This document shows, piece after piece, positions 9,440 through 33,075 of a DNA stretch of 46,003 bases. The position numbers and the translations under genes are program-made. The notes under the pieces were generated by a model. It did not search any database. It was not told the DNA's origin and worked only from the letters and a program-made list of their open reading frames with translations. Origin of the DNA: Deltaproteobacteria bacterium (GTDB taxonomy: Bacteria; Myxococcota; Myxococcia; SLRQ01); assembly GCA_029210625.1 (NCBI GenBank), contig JARGFU010000032.1, forward strand, positions 1 through 46,003, read 5' to 3'. Position 1 is the first letter of the stretch. Each line of letters starts with the position of its first letter.

Positions 9440-10168
9440 CTAGAGCGGCAGCCAGTGGAAGCCGCTGCGCCAGTAGATGGCGAGCCCCTGGCCCAGGATG
9501 GCCTCCCGGCGCACCCAGCCGAAGGCGCGGCCGTCACGGCTCTGGCCGCGGTTGTCGCCCATCACCAGGTAGGTGCCCTCGGGCACCACCGCCTCGCCGT
9601 TGGCGTCCGCGCCGTGGGTCAGGCGAGAGAGGCCCTCGCCGCCGTCGGGGACCAGACGGATCTGGTGGCGGACCCCGTCGAGATCCTCGAGGAGGGTGTC
9701 GCCGTCGGCCTCCACCGGCATCTCGCGGCCGTCGATGAAGAGGTGGCCGCCCTGCACCCGGACTCGATCGCCGGGCAGCGCCACCACGCGCTTGAGGAGG
9801 ATGATCCCGTCCGAGGGTGACTCGAGCACGACGACGTCCCCCCGCCGCGGCCCCTCGAAGCGCCAGAGGTAGAGCTCGGTGAAGGGGACCCGCACGCCGT
9901 AGGCGAGCTTGTTGACCACGAGGTGGTCGCCCTCCTCGACGGTGGGCAGCATCGAGCCCGTCGGGACGTAGTAGTGGTCGGCCAGCGAGGAGCGGGCCGA
10001 GAGGACGGAGAGGACCAGCAGTCCCAGGAAGACGACCTCCCGGAGGTAGCCCCTCCAGCGCTCGGCGCGGGTCGGCGCCACGCCCTCGCCCTCACCCTCA
10101 CCGGAGTCGCGCTTCTTGCCCTTGCTCGTCGAGTTCTGTCGAGACATCCTGCGCGATCTAAACCACAT
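9440..10168 (-). CDS. lepB: Signal peptidase I
   Basis: A 242-residue inner-membrane serine protease that removes signal peptides from exported preproteins. A charged cytosolic N terminus (about 40 residues, with Gly/Glu repeats) precedes a membrane helix at residues 43-63. The catalytic serine is Ser72 in VPTGSMLPT and the general base is Lys126 in GIILLKRVVALPGD. The conserved box E follows in LVMGDNRGQSRDGRAFGWV. The two start codons, at 10168 and at 10147 (MSRQNSTSK), differ only in the cytosolic tail; neither has a clear ribosome-binding site. It is divergent from the hydrolase gene over only about 41-62 bases and convergent with secG/tRNA-Leu. Confidence 0.95.
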   Translation of the reverse strand: MWFRSRRMSRQNSTSKGKKRDSGEGEGEGVAPTRAERWRGYLREVVFLGLLVLSVLSARSSLADHYYVPTGSMLPTVEEGDHLVVNKLAYGVRVPFTELYLWRFEGPRRGDVVVLESPSDGIILLKRVVALPGDRVRVQGGHLFIDGREMPVEADGDTLLEDLDGVRHQIRLVPDGGEGLSRLTHGADANGEAVVPEGTYLVMGDNRGQSRDGRAFGWVRREAILGQGLAIYWRSGFHWLPL

Positions 10169-28300: not shown

Positions 28301-28395
28301 CCCCCGGCGGCTACCCCTTCGCCTTCACCAACCCCTTCGTGATCGACCGCGAGGGCGACGGCTTCGACGCCCCGGGGCTGGAAGGAGGCTCGTGA
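25351..28395 (+). CDS. PHP-domain lipoprotein, CehA/McbA family
   Basis: A 1014-residue lipoprotein with the lipobox LGGC at the end of its signal peptide. Residues 50-350 are beta-rich; residues 350-520 look like carboxypeptidase-regulatory or Ig-like modules. Residues about 525-800 form a PHP metallohydrolase domain with its metal ligands in order: DGDFHVHGG, VIVATDHDVVHDY, VGVETTG, QLNHPY and NSDSHG. The C terminus has Asp-rich calcium-binding repeats (DCDGVPDTTDNDGDGAIDW, DRNDDGVVD). The CehA/McbA group includes carbaryl hydrolase and microcin-processing enzymes, but the substrate here cannot be named. GGGGAG precedes the ATG. Its stop overlaps the next start (TGATG). Confidence 0.82.
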   Translation: MARPEIHRRPGGATTLALLGLLFLGGCRSKLCLTGDRECDLPSPCAGLTFTCDVAEGDEPSVKVYEAGDPLPAGLDTLVSPGDFLLQNDQVVAVIEALDHAHYLGTSGGNLLDLASRGGADTLNHVIQAIGLLPEDAAVYTDARMISGEGLVALQVTGHLDGHPDLRIATRYELRACEPGLRIRTEFANLEPDPKMVALLDGLYWSGRENLPFTPVAGTGFVHPSFGLTTVGDVYTDAPFLAATAHTEEASSYAVLACDQPHLSGFHSDVVSAVGKRPVLLTTRSTASLERFFGVVPGRSVGPAADLALEVREQLFDERWVRIDGQIVTSGGGPLGDEARASVILEEGSLTQERGARTPWTQVAPDAEGRFSARVPWQRGYVLTVEAFGRPVEERALDVDITNLDLGRIAIPGDATLTLQVLRDGVPGEGLVFFHPADEATREAVSGRLHGVWSTCAPLLGAPHGGSPACNRVLVTQTTAVAVPAGNYEVFATAGPFRRLGRASLSVAEGEAQSLSFDLGALPLKPTGTLDGDFHVHGGASFDSSIPHLDRVRAFLAADLDVIVATDHDVVHDYAAARATLDADARLALIVGVETTGHVLYGLDPNTYVPKVIGHWIFWPLDLDPLAPRRGMPWDEEVEPGGLMERMAGAGWPDERGIAQLNHPYAEADFGRDLGWPKALGIDLDLPLPTQDDGSSAALYLRTPEGGRFGNGDYHAQEVMNGTENGDLLPYRAFWFYLLNQGILRAGTANSDSHGLTDNVLGTPRNLIWANTPVVPFSEPVFDTAVREGRMIGTNGPVLEVALDRGSGAPLGPSILPVQPTAGSSLRIRVSAAPWVPVEEVRIIVNGTVVRTFDGAELVTPLDPFGASELLRLEQSLPLSELLPEAGDAWIVVEAGAPLPQAGDLDCDGVPDTTDNDGDGAIDWRDVDRNDDGVVDAADLDVNEDGKRDAKDTPAACEGGEGPLRNPALPEASDAPARIFEAVTPGGYPFAFTNPFVIDREGDGFDAPGLEGGS

Positions 28396-29222
28396 TGCGC
28401 GCGCTCCTGCCGCTCCTCCTCGCCCTCGGGCTGGCGCTGCCCGCCGCCGCCGACCCCTGCCAGCGCTCGGCCACCGTGGCCCTCGGCCCGCTCCAGGCCG
28501 GCCCGGCGACCGGCGCCCTGGGCACCCCCCGCCGCGCCTGCGCCCGCACCGAGCTTCGCCTGGGCCTCGACGCCGGGGCGATCATCGCCACCTCCGAGTT
28601 CTACGGCTACCTCCACGGCGGCCTGGTCCTGGAGGGGAGCTGGGCGCTGCGCCCCGAGACCGAGCTCTTCGCCCGCATGGAGCTGGTCCGCTACGACAGC
28701 GTCATCAGCTCCCTCTCCGCCTCGGCCCTCGGGCCCGGCTACCTCTCGGGCGGCGCCAGCCACCGGCTCCTGGCCCTCGCGATCGGCGGCCAGCCCCTCC
28801 TCCTGAACGCCTACGGCCGCGTCCTGCTGCCGACGGCGGTGCTCCTCGATCGGGGCAGCTGGCCCCTGGGCCTGGAGGCCGGCGCCACCGGGGCCTGGGA
28901 GCTGCACCCGAAGCTCGATCTCCACGCGGGCCTCGCCCTCTTCGGGGACGGCGCCTTCGGCAGCGGCCCGGCGCGGCCCCGGGTGGGACTCCGCCTGGTG
29001 CCGGGCGTGAGCTACTGGGCCCTCTCCTGGCTCGCGGTGGTCGGCGAGGTGGACCTGGGGATGGGCCACGCCGCCGCCCTCGACACCCTGGGCCTGGGCC
29101 TCGGCCTGCGGGTCGGCGGCGAGCGCCTGGGCGCCGCCCTGGAGCTGCGCGCCCCCCTCGCCGGGCGCGAGCGCCACGACGCGGCGCTCCTCCTCACCGC
29201 CACCTGGCGGCCGGCGGGCTGA
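28395..29222 (+). CDS. Predicted outer-membrane or periplasmic beta-rich protein, 275 aa
   Basis: The signal peptide MRALLPLLLALGLALPAAAD is typical of Sec export. The mature chain alternates polar and hydrophobic residues in strand-length blocks (FYGYLHGGLVLEGSWALRP, LGLGLGLRVGGERLGAALEL) and ends near TWRPAG. This looks like a small barrel, but no family is recognised. The ATG at 28395 shares one base with the stop of the PHP lipoprotein gene, and GAAGGAGG lies just upstream, so the pair is co-translated. A partnership between the metallohydrolase and a membrane barrel is plausible. An alternative GTG at 28392 adds one residue. Confidence 0.75.
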   Translation: MRALLPLLLALGLALPAAADPCQRSATVALGPLQAGPATGALGTPRRACARTELRLGLDAGAIIATSEFYGYLHGGLVLEGSWALRPETELFARMELVRYDSVISSLSASALGPGYLSGGASHRLLALAIGGQPLLLNAYGRVLLPTAVLLDRGSWPLGLEAGATGAWELHPKLDLHAGLALFGDGAFGSGPARPRVGLRLVPGVSYWALSWLAVVGEVDLGMGHAAALDTLGLGLGLRVGGERLGAALELRAPLAGRERHDAALLLTATWRPAG

Positions 29223-29245
29223 AGACGGTACGAGGCGCCCCGGTG

Positions 29246-29251
29246 TGTAAT
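29246..29251 (+). promoter_or_regulatory. Candidate -10 element before the sigma-fusion gene
   Basis: TGTAAT matches five of six -10 consensus bases and lies 32 bases before the ATG at 29283. No good -35 is seen at 16-18 bases upstream, and no GGAAC-type ECF -35 is visible. Recognition by an alternative sigma factor is possible. Confidence 0.35.
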
Positions 29252-29282
29252 CCTTCCCGGTCTCGGTCGTCATGGTGGGTGA

Positions 29283-30332
29283 ATGGCCATGACCGCTGAC
29301 AGAGTCCACGACCCCACGGGGGGGGTCGGGGTCCTGCCCCTGGACCCCGATGCCCGGGATCGGGCAATCGTGAGGCGCATCCTCGCCGGTGAGCGCGAGG
29401 CCTTCGAGGAGCTCGTCACCCGCCACGGCCCCGGCCTGCGCCGGACCATCGAGCGCATGCTCGGGCGGCCCGACGTGGCGGACGAGGCGGTGCAGGAGGT
29501 CTTCCTGCGGGCCTGGAATGCCCTGGGGAGCTACCGGGGGGACGCCACGGTGCGCGGCTGGCTCTACCGGATCGCCACCAACCACTGCCGGGACCTGCGC
29601 AAGCGCCCGGGCTGGAAGGAGCGGACCGCCTCGGACCCGGCGGAGGTGATCTCCGGGCAGGCGACGCCGGAGGACCGCAGCCCGGAGCAGCGCGCCGCTC
29701 ACCGGCGGGCACTCGGCGCGGTCCAGGCGGCGCTCACCGCGCGCCTGCGCCAGGACCCCGCCCTCCGGAAGCGCCTCGCCCGGCTGGAGCAGGTGGACGA
29801 GCTGGTCCGTGGTCTGGGCGAGCCTCCCGCCGACCCGGATCCCGAGCTCACCCGGCGGGTGATGGAGCGGATCGCGGCGGAGCCGGCGCCCCGGCCGGCC
29901 GCCCAGCTCGACGCGCACCGGCCGCGCCGGACCTTCTCCTGGCCGACCGCCCTCGCGGCCTGCCTCCTCCTCCTGATCGGCTTCCTGGCCGGGCGCTTCG
30001 CGCACCGGCCGGCGCCGAGGGAGGGCCAGGGGAGCGACGCGGCGACGCTCGCCCGTGTCGACGCGCCGGAACCCGGGGGCGTGGTCGTCCACTTCGTCCT
30101 CGAGGCGGGCGAGGCCCGGACCGTCTCGGTGGTGGGCACCTTCAACGGCTGGGCCCCGGAGGCCCACCCCATGCACCGCTCGCAGGGCCGCTGGATCGCC
30201 CGGCTGCGCCTGCCGCCCGGCCGGCACGAGTACCAGTTCCTGATCGATGGCGAGCGGTGGATCGTGGATCCCTCGGCGCCGTCCACGGCCCAGGATGGCT
30301 TCGGGGGCGTGAACGGGGTGCTCGAGATCTGA
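29283..30332 (+). CDS. Fusion: ECF sigma region 2, anti-sigma-like segment, TM helix and CBM48 domain
   Basis: A 349-residue protein with an unusual order of parts. Residues 30-108 are a sigma-70 region 2 of ECF type (FEELVTRHGPGLRRTIERM, DEAVQEVFLRAWNAL, VRGWLYRIATNHCRDLRKR), which binds RNA polymerase and the -10 element. Region 4 should follow after about residue 145, yet is absent. The chain moves instead into TARLRQDPALRKRLARLEQV and PPADPDPELTRRVMERI, typical of the helical part of anti-sigma factors. Residues 221-240 are a membrane helix (PTALAACLLLLIGFLAGRFA). Residues 263-349 are a CBM48/AMPK-type glycan-binding domain (VVGTFNGWAPEAHPM, GRHEYQFLIDGE). It probably arose by deletion fusing a sigma gene to its anti-sigma gene. 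It heads the cluster 30367-32915. Confidence 0.85.
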   Translation: MAMTADRVHDPTGGVGVLPLDPDARDRAIVRRILAGEREAFEELVTRHGPGLRRTIERMLGRPDVADEAVQEVFLRAWNALGSYRGDATVRGWLYRIATNHCRDLRKRPGWKERTASDPAEVISGQATPEDRSPEQRAAHRRALGAVQAALTARLRQDPALRKRLARLEQVDELVRGLGEPPADPDPELTRRVMERIAAEPAPRPAAQLDAHRPRRTFSWPTALAACLLLLIGFLAGRFAHRPAPREGQGSDAATLARVDAPEPGGVVVHFVLEAGEARTVSVVGTFNGWAPEAHPMHRSQGRWIARLRLPPGRHEYQFLIDGERWIVDPSAPSTAQDGFGGVNGVLEI

Positions 30333-30366
30333 CGTCCGGGTCGCACCTCGACTATGGTCGGCCGCG

Positions 30367-31347
30367 ATGCGAGTTCGTGGCTCCCTCCCCGGCGCGGCCC
30401 TGCCGGCCTGGCTCCTCGTGATGGCGCTGACCCTGGCGCCGCGCTCCGCCGGGGCCGAGCTGCGCCTGGAGGGGAGGGCGGAGCTGCAGGGCGGAGGGGC
30501 CACCCGGGCGTACCTCGTCCCCGGCACCGTCGAGCCCGAGGCCGTGGGCCTGCTGCAGCTGGGCCTGGGCCTCAGCCACCATCGGCCCCGGCACTGGATG
30601 CGGGCCGGCTACGACTTCAGCGTGCAGTCCCTCCCCCTCTCGGGCAAGTGGGGCCTCTTCCACCGCGGCCAGCTCGCGGGGCGCCTCGCGCTGCGCCGCA
30701 GCGGGCGCCTGGAGCTCTCCCTGCGCGGTGGCGCCATCGACTTCCTGAGCGAGGGTGCCGTCGCCACCGGGAGCTCTCTCGACGTCGTCGCGACCCGGGC
30801 CCGCTACGCCGGCTTCGCGCTGGGGGGCTCCCTGCGGATCGGCAGGACCCGGCTCGAGAGCCGCCTCGACGCCGAGTACCGGAGCTCCCGGGCGCAGCTC
30901 TCGGGGAGCGGGAACGACACGACCACCGACCCGCTCGACGAGGTGCTGATCGAGGGCCGGATCGGGGTCGACCACGATACCGGCCACCGGACCCGGCTGA
31001 GCCTGGCGCTGGTGGGCAGCGGCCGGGCCTCGGACTCGGACTACCTCAGCTACGGGGGCGGCGGGCTCGAGCTCGGCGTCGCGGTCGTGCCTCGCCGCGG
31101 GACGTCGATCCAGGCCCTCGTTCGCAGTCAGCTCAACGCCTACCCGGCGGGGGGTGATCCGGCCTTCCAGCGCCAGGACCTCTTCGCCCGGGTCTGGCTG
31201 CTCTTGCGCCAGCGGCTCGCCGAGGGGGTCTGGCTCGGGGCCGTCTGGTCCTACAGCGCGAACGGCTCGGTGGAGGCCGCCTACGACGCGGATCGACACC
31301 TGGCGCTCCTGACCCTGCAGCTGGAGGGAGCGCTCCTGCGATGGTGA
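30367..31347 (+). CDS. Predicted outer-membrane beta-barrel protein, 326 aa
   Basis: The signal peptide ends MALTLAPRSAGA. The mature part consists of many amphipathic strands with turns (LQLGLGLSHHRPRHWMRAGY, GRLALRRSGRLELSLRGG, RTRLSLALVGSGRASDSDYL), as in outer-membrane barrels. It ends in an aromatic residue, ALLRW, the typical sorting signal. About twelve or more strands are likely. No family was recognised. It begins 34 bases after the sigma-fusion gene and overlaps the next gene by seven bases (ATGGTGA), so it belongs to the same operon. Confidence 0.78.
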   Translation: MRVRGSLPGAALPAWLLVMALTLAPRSAGAELRLEGRAELQGGGATRAYLVPGTVEPEAVGLLQLGLGLSHHRPRHWMRAGYDFSVQSLPLSGKWGLFHRGQLAGRLALRRSGRLELSLRGGAIDFLSEGAVATGSSLDVVATRARYAGFALGGSLRIGRTRLESRLDAEYRSSRAQLSGSGNDTTTDPLDEVLIEGRIGVDHDTGHRTRLSLALVGSGRASDSDYLSYGGGGLELGVAVVPRRGTSIQALVRSQLNAYPAGGDPAFQRQDLFARVWLLLRQRLAEGVWLGAVWSYSANGSVEAAYDADRHLALLTLQLEGALLRW

Positions 31348-32036
31348 GGACACGTGGCACGCGCCAGGGGGGCTGGCTCATCGCCAGCGTCGGCCTGCTG
31401 GGGATCATGGGCCTCCCCGCCCCGGTCCTGAGCGAGGCGCCACCCGGGCCGCCCGCGGTCGAGGAGGTCGAGGGCGCGCCGGAGGGCGAGCCTGCCGACG
31501 CCCGTACGCGCGGGAGGATCGCCCTGCGAGGGCTGCGGCCCGGGGACCGGGTGGAGGTGGATGGCGCCCCGCTCCCCGAGGGAACGTCGGAGCTGGAGGT
31601 CGAGCCCGGGCTGCACCTGGTCACGGTCTTCCCTGTGGCCGAGCCCCCCCTCGAGCTCTTCGTAGAGATCGAGGGCGGCGGCCACCTCGAGCTGCCGCGG
31701 GCGCCGCCGCCGCCGCTACCCCGGGCGTGGGCCACCGGCTCGCCGGCGTCCTTCGGCGCCGCCGGCGCCGCGCTCTTCGCCGCGGGCACCTGGGCGGTCC
31801 TGGCCCGGCGGACGGACCGGGCCATCGAGGGTCTGTCCACCCGGACCGATCTCGATCCCGCGGTCCAGGCGCTGGTGATCGCCGAGGCCGAGGGCCGGGC
31901 CACCCGGCGCCGCCGCGCCCTGATCGGGATGGTCGGCGTGGGGGCCCTGCTGGCGGCCACGGGGACGACCCTCCTCCTCTTGCCCACCGCCGGGGAGAGC
32001 GCCGCCCCGGGGCTGACCGTGGTGGGCGTGTGGTAA
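31341..32036 (+). CDS. PEGA-like membrane protein, 231 aa
   Basis: An N-terminal hydrophobic segment (GGWLIASVGLLGIMGLPAPV) serves as a signal or anchor. Residues 55-105 resemble a PEGA domain, a small beta fold with the pattern GRIALRGLRPGDRVEVDGAP followed by LEVEPGLHLVTVF. A proline run and two more hydrophobic helices follow (SFGAAGAALFAAGTWAVLA, RALIGMVGVGALLAATGTTL). PEGA domains are frequent in envelope proteins of myxobacteria; their ligand is not settled. Start and stop of the previous gene overlap by seven bases. The next gene begins 21 bases after this one. Confidence 0.72.
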   Translation: MVRTRGTRQGGWLIASVGLLGIMGLPAPVLSEAPPGPPAVEEVEGAPEGEPADARTRGRIALRGLRPGDRVEVDGAPLPEGTSELEVEPGLHLVTVFPVAEPPLELFVEIEGGGHLELPRAPPPPLPRAWATGSPASFGAAGAALFAAGTWAVLARRTDRAIEGLSTRTDLDPAVQALVIAEAEGRATRRRRALIGMVGVGALLAATGTTLLLLPTAGESAAPGLTVVGVW

Positions 32037-32057
32037 CCTTCGAGCCGAACGGACGTC

Positions 32058-32915
32058 ATGAAGAGCGTGACTCACCTGCCCGATAGCCTGAACCGAGCGC
32101 TGGGGGCGCTCCTCCTGGTGGTGGTCGGCCTCCTGCCGGCGGCCGCCGCCCGGGCGAGCGACGACCTCATGGCCGGGCTGCGCGAGCGCTCGGAGGCGGC
32201 GGGCGTGCCGCCCACGATCCTGGCCGGAGTGGAGCGGGAGCTGATCCAGGCGCAGGAGGCGGGCGTCAGCGCGGAGGCCCTCCGGAACAAGTACCTGGAG
32301 GGTCTGGCGAAGGGCGTTCCACCGGCGAAGATCCTGGTGGTCGTCCGGACCCTCCGGGTGCGGATCGAGCGGGCGGCCCGGCTCCTCGCACCCCTGGCGT
32401 CCGCGGACGCCTCGCGGGCCTCGGTCCGCGTGGCCGACGCCCTGGGCCGGGGTGTGTCGCCCGAGGACGTCGGGCTGCTGGTGAACCGAGCTCGCGAGCG
32501 TCTGGCCCGGGCCGAGGTGGTGGCCGAGGGGACCCAGACCCTCGCGCGCCTGCGAGAGGCCGGCCTCTACGATCCCGCCCTCTGCGAGGCGGTCGGGAGG
32601 GCGGTCGCCGCCGGGTACACCGAGCAGGATCTCGACCGCCTGGGAGACGATCTGCGGCGCTTCGCCGCGAACGGCGGTGACCTCGCCGACTTCTCCATCG
32701 GCGGCGACGCACGAGGAGAGGGGCGGGAGGGTCACCTCCTGGACGAGAGCGCGGGCAGCGCGGCCAGCGAGGTCCCCGGCACCGAGGAGCTGGGGGGAGG
32801 CTCGGGAGGAGAGGGCGGCGAGGATCCGCTCGCCGGGGATCGCCCCGGCACCGACGAGGTCTTCCGCGCGGGGCGCGATCAGGATCCGAACAACCCGGAT
32901 CCGCCCAGGCCCTGA
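32058..32915 (+). CDS. Exported helical protein with disordered acidic tail, 285 aa
   Basis: A signal peptide (LGALLLVVVGLLPAAAARAS) precedes about 190 residues predicted to be helical, with repeated turns (EAGVSAEALRNKYLEGLAKG, GRGVSPEDVGLLVNRARERL). The last 70 residues are low-complexity, rich in Gly, Asp and Glu, and end NPDPPRP. I recognise no family. It should be periplasmic and may act as a spacer or binding subunit in the CBM48/barrel/PEGA cluster, of which it is the last tightly packed gene. A 160-base gap with a hairpin at 32947 follows. Confidence 0.75.
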   Translation: MKSVTHLPDSLNRALGALLLVVVGLLPAAAARASDDLMAGLRERSEAAGVPPTILAGVERELIQAQEAGVSAEALRNKYLEGLAKGVPPAKILVVVRTLRVRIERAARLLAPLASADASRASVRVADALGRGVSPEDVGLLVNRARERLARAEVVAEGTQTLARLREAGLYDPALCEAVGRAVAAGYTEQDLDRLGDDLRRFAANGGDLADFSIGGDARGEGREGHLLDESAGSAASEVPGTEELGGGSGGEGGEDPLAGDRPGTDEVFRAGRDQDPNNPDPPRP

Positions 32916-32946
32916 TCGCCCGGCGCGCTGCGCCCCGGTCGCTGTA

Positions 32947-32964
32947 ACCGAGCTCGCGCTCGGT
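32947..32964 (+). terminator. Hairpin after the sigma-fusion cluster
   Basis: ACCGAGC and GCTCGGT form a perfect seven-base-pair stem around TCGC, 32 bases after the stop of the helical protein gene. No T run follows, so termination is possible but unproven. Confidence 0.35.
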
Positions 32965-33075
32965 CGTCACAAGCGGGAGAGGGCCGAGACGGACTCGGCC
33001 CCCGGCTTCCAGTTTCGGTTCCGGCGACGGGGGTCGCCGAGTGAGGGACCGGACTCGATCGAAGAAGGGATACCC

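Follow-up and report, generated by a model that had tools for sequence, protein, structure and literature searches.

Within the window analysed here (the whole stretch of 46,003 nucleotides, from a member of the Myxococcota), one open frame joins a sigma factor segment to anti-sigma helices, a membrane helix and a carbohydrate-binding domain. The features of this gene are as follows:

29283..30332, + strand: fused gene encoding sigma region 2 (sigma2), anti-sigma helices, membrane helix and CBM48 (349 aa, no internal stop)
29412..29612, + strand: Sigma-70 region 2, about residues 44-110 (Pfam PF04542, E 2.4e-15; whole-genome family search)
29724..29738, + strand: probable fusion junction, residues 148-152, where sigma4 (region 4) and anti-sigma helix 1 are missing (two profiles)
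29724..29876, + strand: retained anti-sigma domain, H2/H3 and H4 (alignment to 16 anti-sigma relatives; predicted helices)
29841..29876, + strand: anti-sigma helix H4, about residues 187-198 (predicted helix)
29940..29996, + strand: single membrane helix, residues 220-238 (hydrophobic segment; AlphaFold helix; alignment with the membrane segment of relatives)
30075..30329, + strand: AMPK-type CBM48 domain, residues 265-349 (Pfam, PDB sequence match, Foldseek)

Pfam places Sigma70_r2 at residues 44-109 of the fused protein (E 2.4e-15), AMPK1_CBM (PF16561) at residues 276-349 (E 1.7e-13) and CBM_48 at residues 275-330, adds a sub-threshold RseA_N match over residues 148-214 (E 0.036) and returns no Sigma70_r4 in the protein; among the models listed, matches to the full-length ECF models of NCBIfam end by about residue 163. 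As an ECF sigma factor, the protein has region 2 and lacks region 4. Its residues 148-349 are homologous to anti-sigma factors (147 bits against a profile of 16 ECF-adjacent anti-sigma proteins), and from the class I anti-sigma architecture, an H1-H3 bundle plus H4, it keeps H2/H3 and H4 and lacks H1. The AlphaFold model (mean pLDDT 64, pTM 0.37) contains four helices in sigma2 (22-107), further helices at residues 134-156, 159-178 and 187-198, the membrane helix (220-238) and a confident beta-sandwich (267-348). Joint alignments wrongly placed the anti-sigma helices over sigma2, and the alignment input was therefore limited to rows for sigma2 and for CBM48; H2-H4 were modelled from the single sequence, with low confidence. 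By fold and profile, the C-terminal domain belongs to the CBM48/AMPK glycogen-binding family: Foldseek matches the beta-sandwich to the AMPK beta-1 glycogen-binding domain (1z0m, 4yef), and the PDB sequence match to AMPK beta-1 1z0n has an E value of 6.7e-12. The domain keeps two tryptophans and one asparagine aligned with the AMPK glycan site, which makes it a candidate binder of alpha-glucan; of the five glycan-contact positions in AMPK, three are kept as aligned, and the other two have K to Q and L to F.

An intact frame with an ECF region 2, anti-sigma helices, one membrane helix and CBM48 is what a preliminary description had read from this DNA, and Pfam, the profiles and AlphaFold all bear out that architecture. 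The absence of region 4, also claimed there, holds for the protein (Pfam) and for the contig, on which a whole-genome six-frame Sigma70_r4_2 search (24 matches in the genome) placed none. Because region 4 and H1 are both lacking, we regard the protein, on its sequence, as a remnant left by the fusion of a gene pair of known type rather than as a sigma factor. The open frame alone is weak evidence, because GC-rich DNA also opens a frame of 738 aa on the opposite strand (28311-30527, -), a by-product of the high G+C, and the case for fusion therefore rests on the profile matches and on the relatives. PADLOC gave no match, and scans for sigma-70 promoters and terminators found nothing.

Residues 23-152 align with a profile of related sigma factors as far as its node 137 of 192, which leaves about 55 positions (region 4) missing, and the profile of the 16 anti-sigma relatives covers residues 148-349 from node 22 of 225, about 21 positions (helix 1) being missing. 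The overlap between the end of the first and the start of the second, two independent profiles, defines the junction at residues 148-152 (29724-29738), in agreement with the internal deletion near 29727-29745 by which the preliminary description had proposed that two genes were fused. The size reference is the genome G064, the closest among the matches listed, where the sigma (213 aa) and anti-sigma (195 aa) genes stand 4 nt apart; relative to it, we estimate from the alignments that about 240 nt of DNA are missing. In relatives gathered from class, phylum and GTDB 220 contigs, the two genes are unfused. At least 31 related loci, a count that exceeds the number of independent lineages, many loci being near one another (several in Nitrospira), carry an ECF sigma gene that has both region 2 and region 4 and, after it, a second gene that encodes an anti-sigma segment, a membrane helix and CBM48, so that the relatives with separate genes for which the preliminary description had advised a search do occur, with region 4 intact. 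Their hosts include Myxococcota, Nitrospira, Gemmatimonadota, Chitinispirillaceae and Bipolaricaulota, and the paired genes mostly overlap by, or stand apart by, a few nucleotides. Among the matches listed, a scripted comparison found both domains in one open frame only in the gene of the window, and the fused form is known from one genome only, in a comparison set drawn from outside its genus. No intact second copy of the pair turned up in that genome, where the best other matches are ordinary ECFs (25-35% identity) and a search for a second CBM48 anti-sigma found none. That an ancestral ECF sigma gene and a downstream membrane anti-sigma gene were fused by an internal deletion is well supported by these sequence comparisons.

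One further match, in G072, spanned both halves (C168, two stops), but on inspection it consisted of an ordinary ECF and, downstream in a different frame, a zinc-finger anti-sigma. In one Nitrospira genome (L115 5727-6348), the sigma gene lies in two frames, with region 2 apart from region 4, probably as a result of a frameshift.

Upstream of the fused gene and further along the window lie promoter-like sites of the ECF type and a gene that is probably under their control:

29246..29271, + strand: promoter-like site of ECF type, TGTAAT-N16-CGTC, 37 nt upstream of the ATG of the fused gene (equivalent in G064)
32032..32057, + strand: second promoter-like site GGTAAC-N16-CGTC, before the gene at 32058-32915
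32058..32915, + strand: probable regulon gene for a secreted helical protein of 285 aa with an EGLAKGVP segment (genes of relatives)
32943..32968, + strand: third promoter-like site TGTAAC-N16-CGTC, before the beta-barrel-like gene at about 33072

The intact sigma gene of G064 has GGTAAC-N16-CGTC at -38, with the same spacing as the first window site and in nearly the same place. From these two sites, leaving the second and third aside, we defined the motif KGTAAY-N16-CGTC, which has exactly three matches in the 6.11-Mb genome (29246, 32032 and 32943), all on the + strand and within 3.7 kb; the reversed control pattern has one match in the genome, and dinucleotide shuffles of the window give an expectation of 0.03 matches per window. 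G064 likewise has three motif sites at its own operon, one before the sigma gene, one after the anti-sigma gene and one before the relative of the window's 32058 gene; its site at L044 9699 precedes the gene at 9739 just as the second window site precedes the 32058 gene. The 285-aa protein shares 43% identity over 68 aa with that G064 protein (L044 9739-10617) and 35% over 107 aa with one of G067 (L047 6969-7778), both encoded downstream of the sigma/anti-sigma pair. The pattern suggests a local regulon, predicted from the sites and gene order, that would comprise the fused gene, the 285-aa EGLAKGVP protein and the beta-barrel-like protein.

In ECF promoters, the -35 half is read by region 4. 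Because -35 elements are kept at three places, the loss of region 4 would be recent, or not real, or another sigma factor reads the sites; this last reading is weakened because no such site occurs elsewhere in the genome. On the sequence, region 4 was thus probably lost recently, or its loss is an artefact of assembly or strain. The gene itself bears no marks of decay. Core-binding and -10 segments are conserved in its intact sigma2, which scores 82.8 bits on a profile from which it was left out; most relatives outside the seeds of that profile score 52-99 bits. G+C by codon position (first/second/third) amounts to 0.78/0.54/0.94 for the sigma half and 0.80/0.55/0.96 for the anti-sigma half, and the neighbouring genes are alike. 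Together, the intact -35 elements at three local promoters and the undecayed sigma2 suggest a recent event.

We consider it fairly likely that this is a derived, genome-private fusion produced by one deletion and that the tethered product most likely has no sigma activity. The starting state would have been two genes, one for an ECF sigma factor with sigma2 and sigma4 and one for a single-pass membrane anti-sigma factor with a periplasmic CBM48. One contiguous deletion of about 240 nt would then have removed sigma4, the gene boundary and anti-sigma helix 1, joining the remainder in frame. Anti-sigma factors of class I engage both domains of their sigma factor: helix 4 lies against the face of sigma2 that binds RNA polymerase, and helix 1, together with H3, touches sigma4 (PMC7406223). 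Given the gene order sigma2-sigma4-H1-H2-H3-H4, one deletion takes sigma4 and H1 together and spares sigma2 and H4, so that the lost and the kept contacts pair up, sigma4 with helix 1 and sigma2 with helix 4. The product would be held at the membrane, where helix 4 could cover the RNA-polymerase face of its own sigma2; because sigma4 is absent, it could not read a -35 element and would therefore most likely be inactive as a sigma factor, leaving the local regulon without its activator. A fusion seen in one genome alone speaks for either a recent loss-of-function allele or an artefact. Against this account, an in-frame join with intact domains on either side is also expected of a functional fusion, and the part of the AlphaFold model that bears on the predicted masking of sigma2 in cis, H2-H4, is of low confidence.

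An artefact of assembly or of a minority strain is unlikely, although it deserves to be taken seriously; on this reading, the organism has two normal genes, and the deletion either arose in assembly or is carried by part of the population. The genome is a draft of 64 contigs, the deletion is shared by no related locus among the matches listed, and there is no decay in the -35 elements, in sigma2, in the region of helix 4, in the membrane helix or in CBM48, which fits an artefact. Yet the missing region 4, or a second allele, is on no contig of the draft, the join is clean and in frame, and a short sequence common to both sides of the junction is not something that would usually lead an assembler to leave out about 240 bases.

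The preliminary description had envisaged active roles for the protein, as a dominant competitor, a one-piece regulator or a partner in a split sigma factor, for which we found no support. A functional decoy, whose tethered sigma2 binds core RNA polymerase or keeps it at the membrane under regulation by glycan binding to CBM48, is improbable. The conserved core-binding and -10 segments of sigma2 and the two tryptophans and the asparagine of the CBM48 glycan site agree with such a function, and fused sigma/anti-sigma membrane proteins do work elsewhere (PMC8999054), but this one is seen in a single genome, the same face of sigma2 should be covered by helix 4 in cis, and the -35 elements have not decayed as expected of a locus that had long worked without region 4. 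That the deletion has been fixed and selected, and that the half sigma factor it left tethered to the membrane, with a glycan sensor in the periplasm, serves as a regulated decoy or membrane anchor for RNA polymerase, seems to us quite improbable; to our knowledge, such a class of regulator is undescribed.

It is very improbable that another ECF of this genome now reads the promoters and that the fused gene is a harmless remnant retained for its CBM48 half: the three conserved sites and the genome's other ECF-like sigma factors, of which there are at least 15, would allow it, but the lack of any further exact site means that no other ECF appears to autoregulate through the motif. The chance that the tethered sigma2 has a partner in a distinct region-4 protein, on the model of the split sigma factor SigO-RsoA of Bacillus, is next to negligible even though the -35 elements are conserved while region 4 is absent in cis, since no standalone region 4 that could plausibly serve lies near the locus or is akin to the lost one, none of the inspected matches without a strong region 2 being near the locus, and the closest region 4 to the lost one (47% over 53 aa) being part of a complete ECF; nothing else in the genome resembles it. 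Among the candidates for a standalone region 4, most matches lacking region 2 proved to be LuxR-type response regulators, and one was a sigma-like protein beside a kinase gene.

The favoured reading, a genome-private remnant, can be set against several known systems. With the ECF sigma/CBM48 anti-sigma pair of the relatives, the window gene shares its domains, their order and its operon position, and with G064 also the GTAAC-N16-CGTC promoter; the pair consists of two genes with sigma4 and, in its full-size forms, helix 1, whereas the window has one gene without either. The preliminary description knew of no protein with this order of domains. This needs qualifying: the ECF52 fused sigma factor SCO4117 of Streptomyces combines sigma, anti-sigma, membrane and carbohydrate-binding parts, although such proteins keep sigma4, and SCO4117, ECF48 and ECF53 are described as having a complete sigma, a zinc-finger anti-sigma domain and an expected activation by proteolysis (PMC8999054). 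Like these, the window protein has sigma, anti-sigma and a membrane helix on one polypeptide, and like SCO4117 a carbohydrate-binding domain outside, but it lacks both sigma4 and the zinc finger (zero cysteines in residues 140-200) and does not belong to the ECF48/52/53 type. IutY of Pseudomonas putida, which responds to the siderophore aerobactin and from which proteolysis releases an active sigma (PMC8999054, PMC5411451), is also a sigma, likewise complete, and an anti-sigma fused in one membrane protein, in its case without CBM48. As in the class I domains of RseA, RskA and RsiW, H2/H3 and H4 precede a membrane helix in the window protein, consistent with its weak RseA_N match, but the helix 1 that contacts sigma4 is missing. 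The fold of CBM48 is common to the AMPK beta glycogen-binding domain, but the window domain is expected to be periplasmic, on a membrane protein. The locus illustrates how one small deletion at the boundary of a sigma and an anti-sigma gene can yield a one-piece protein and may be a snapshot of how fused sigma/anti-sigma proteins originate, though here sigma4 was lost.

In our view, the unit formed by the ECF sigma and the CBM48 anti-sigma, with its promoter, is a more durable finding than the fusion. A literature search, which did not reach the main ECF classification, found no paper describing this pair; it is an apparently undescribed, widespread unit with a recognisable promoter, through which a glycan-responsive sigma pathway could be tested in cultured relatives. 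The pair recurs across our loci L094-L145, L044-L050 and L071. The anti-sigma domain is shorter in Gemmatimonadota and in some others, where apparently mainly a segment like helix 4 is left. At four loci (L044 8471-9702, L045 7045-8271, L046 6276-7586 and L047 5573-6892), a beta-barrel-like gene follows the anti-sigma gene, and in relatives this gene carries, or adjoins, a further CBM48 domain; the barrel-like gene of the window at 30367-31347 has no CBM48 and no detectable similarity to its G064 counterpart. Several sigma genes of the relatives are preceded by GTTTAC-N16-CGTC (Nitrospira), and that of G064 by GGTAAC-N16-CGTC. In the Nitrospira loci L095-L104, the GTTTAC-N16-CGTC upstream of sigma is clear in several, often running on as CGTCTAATG, and a second small CBM48 gene comes right after the anti-sigma gene.
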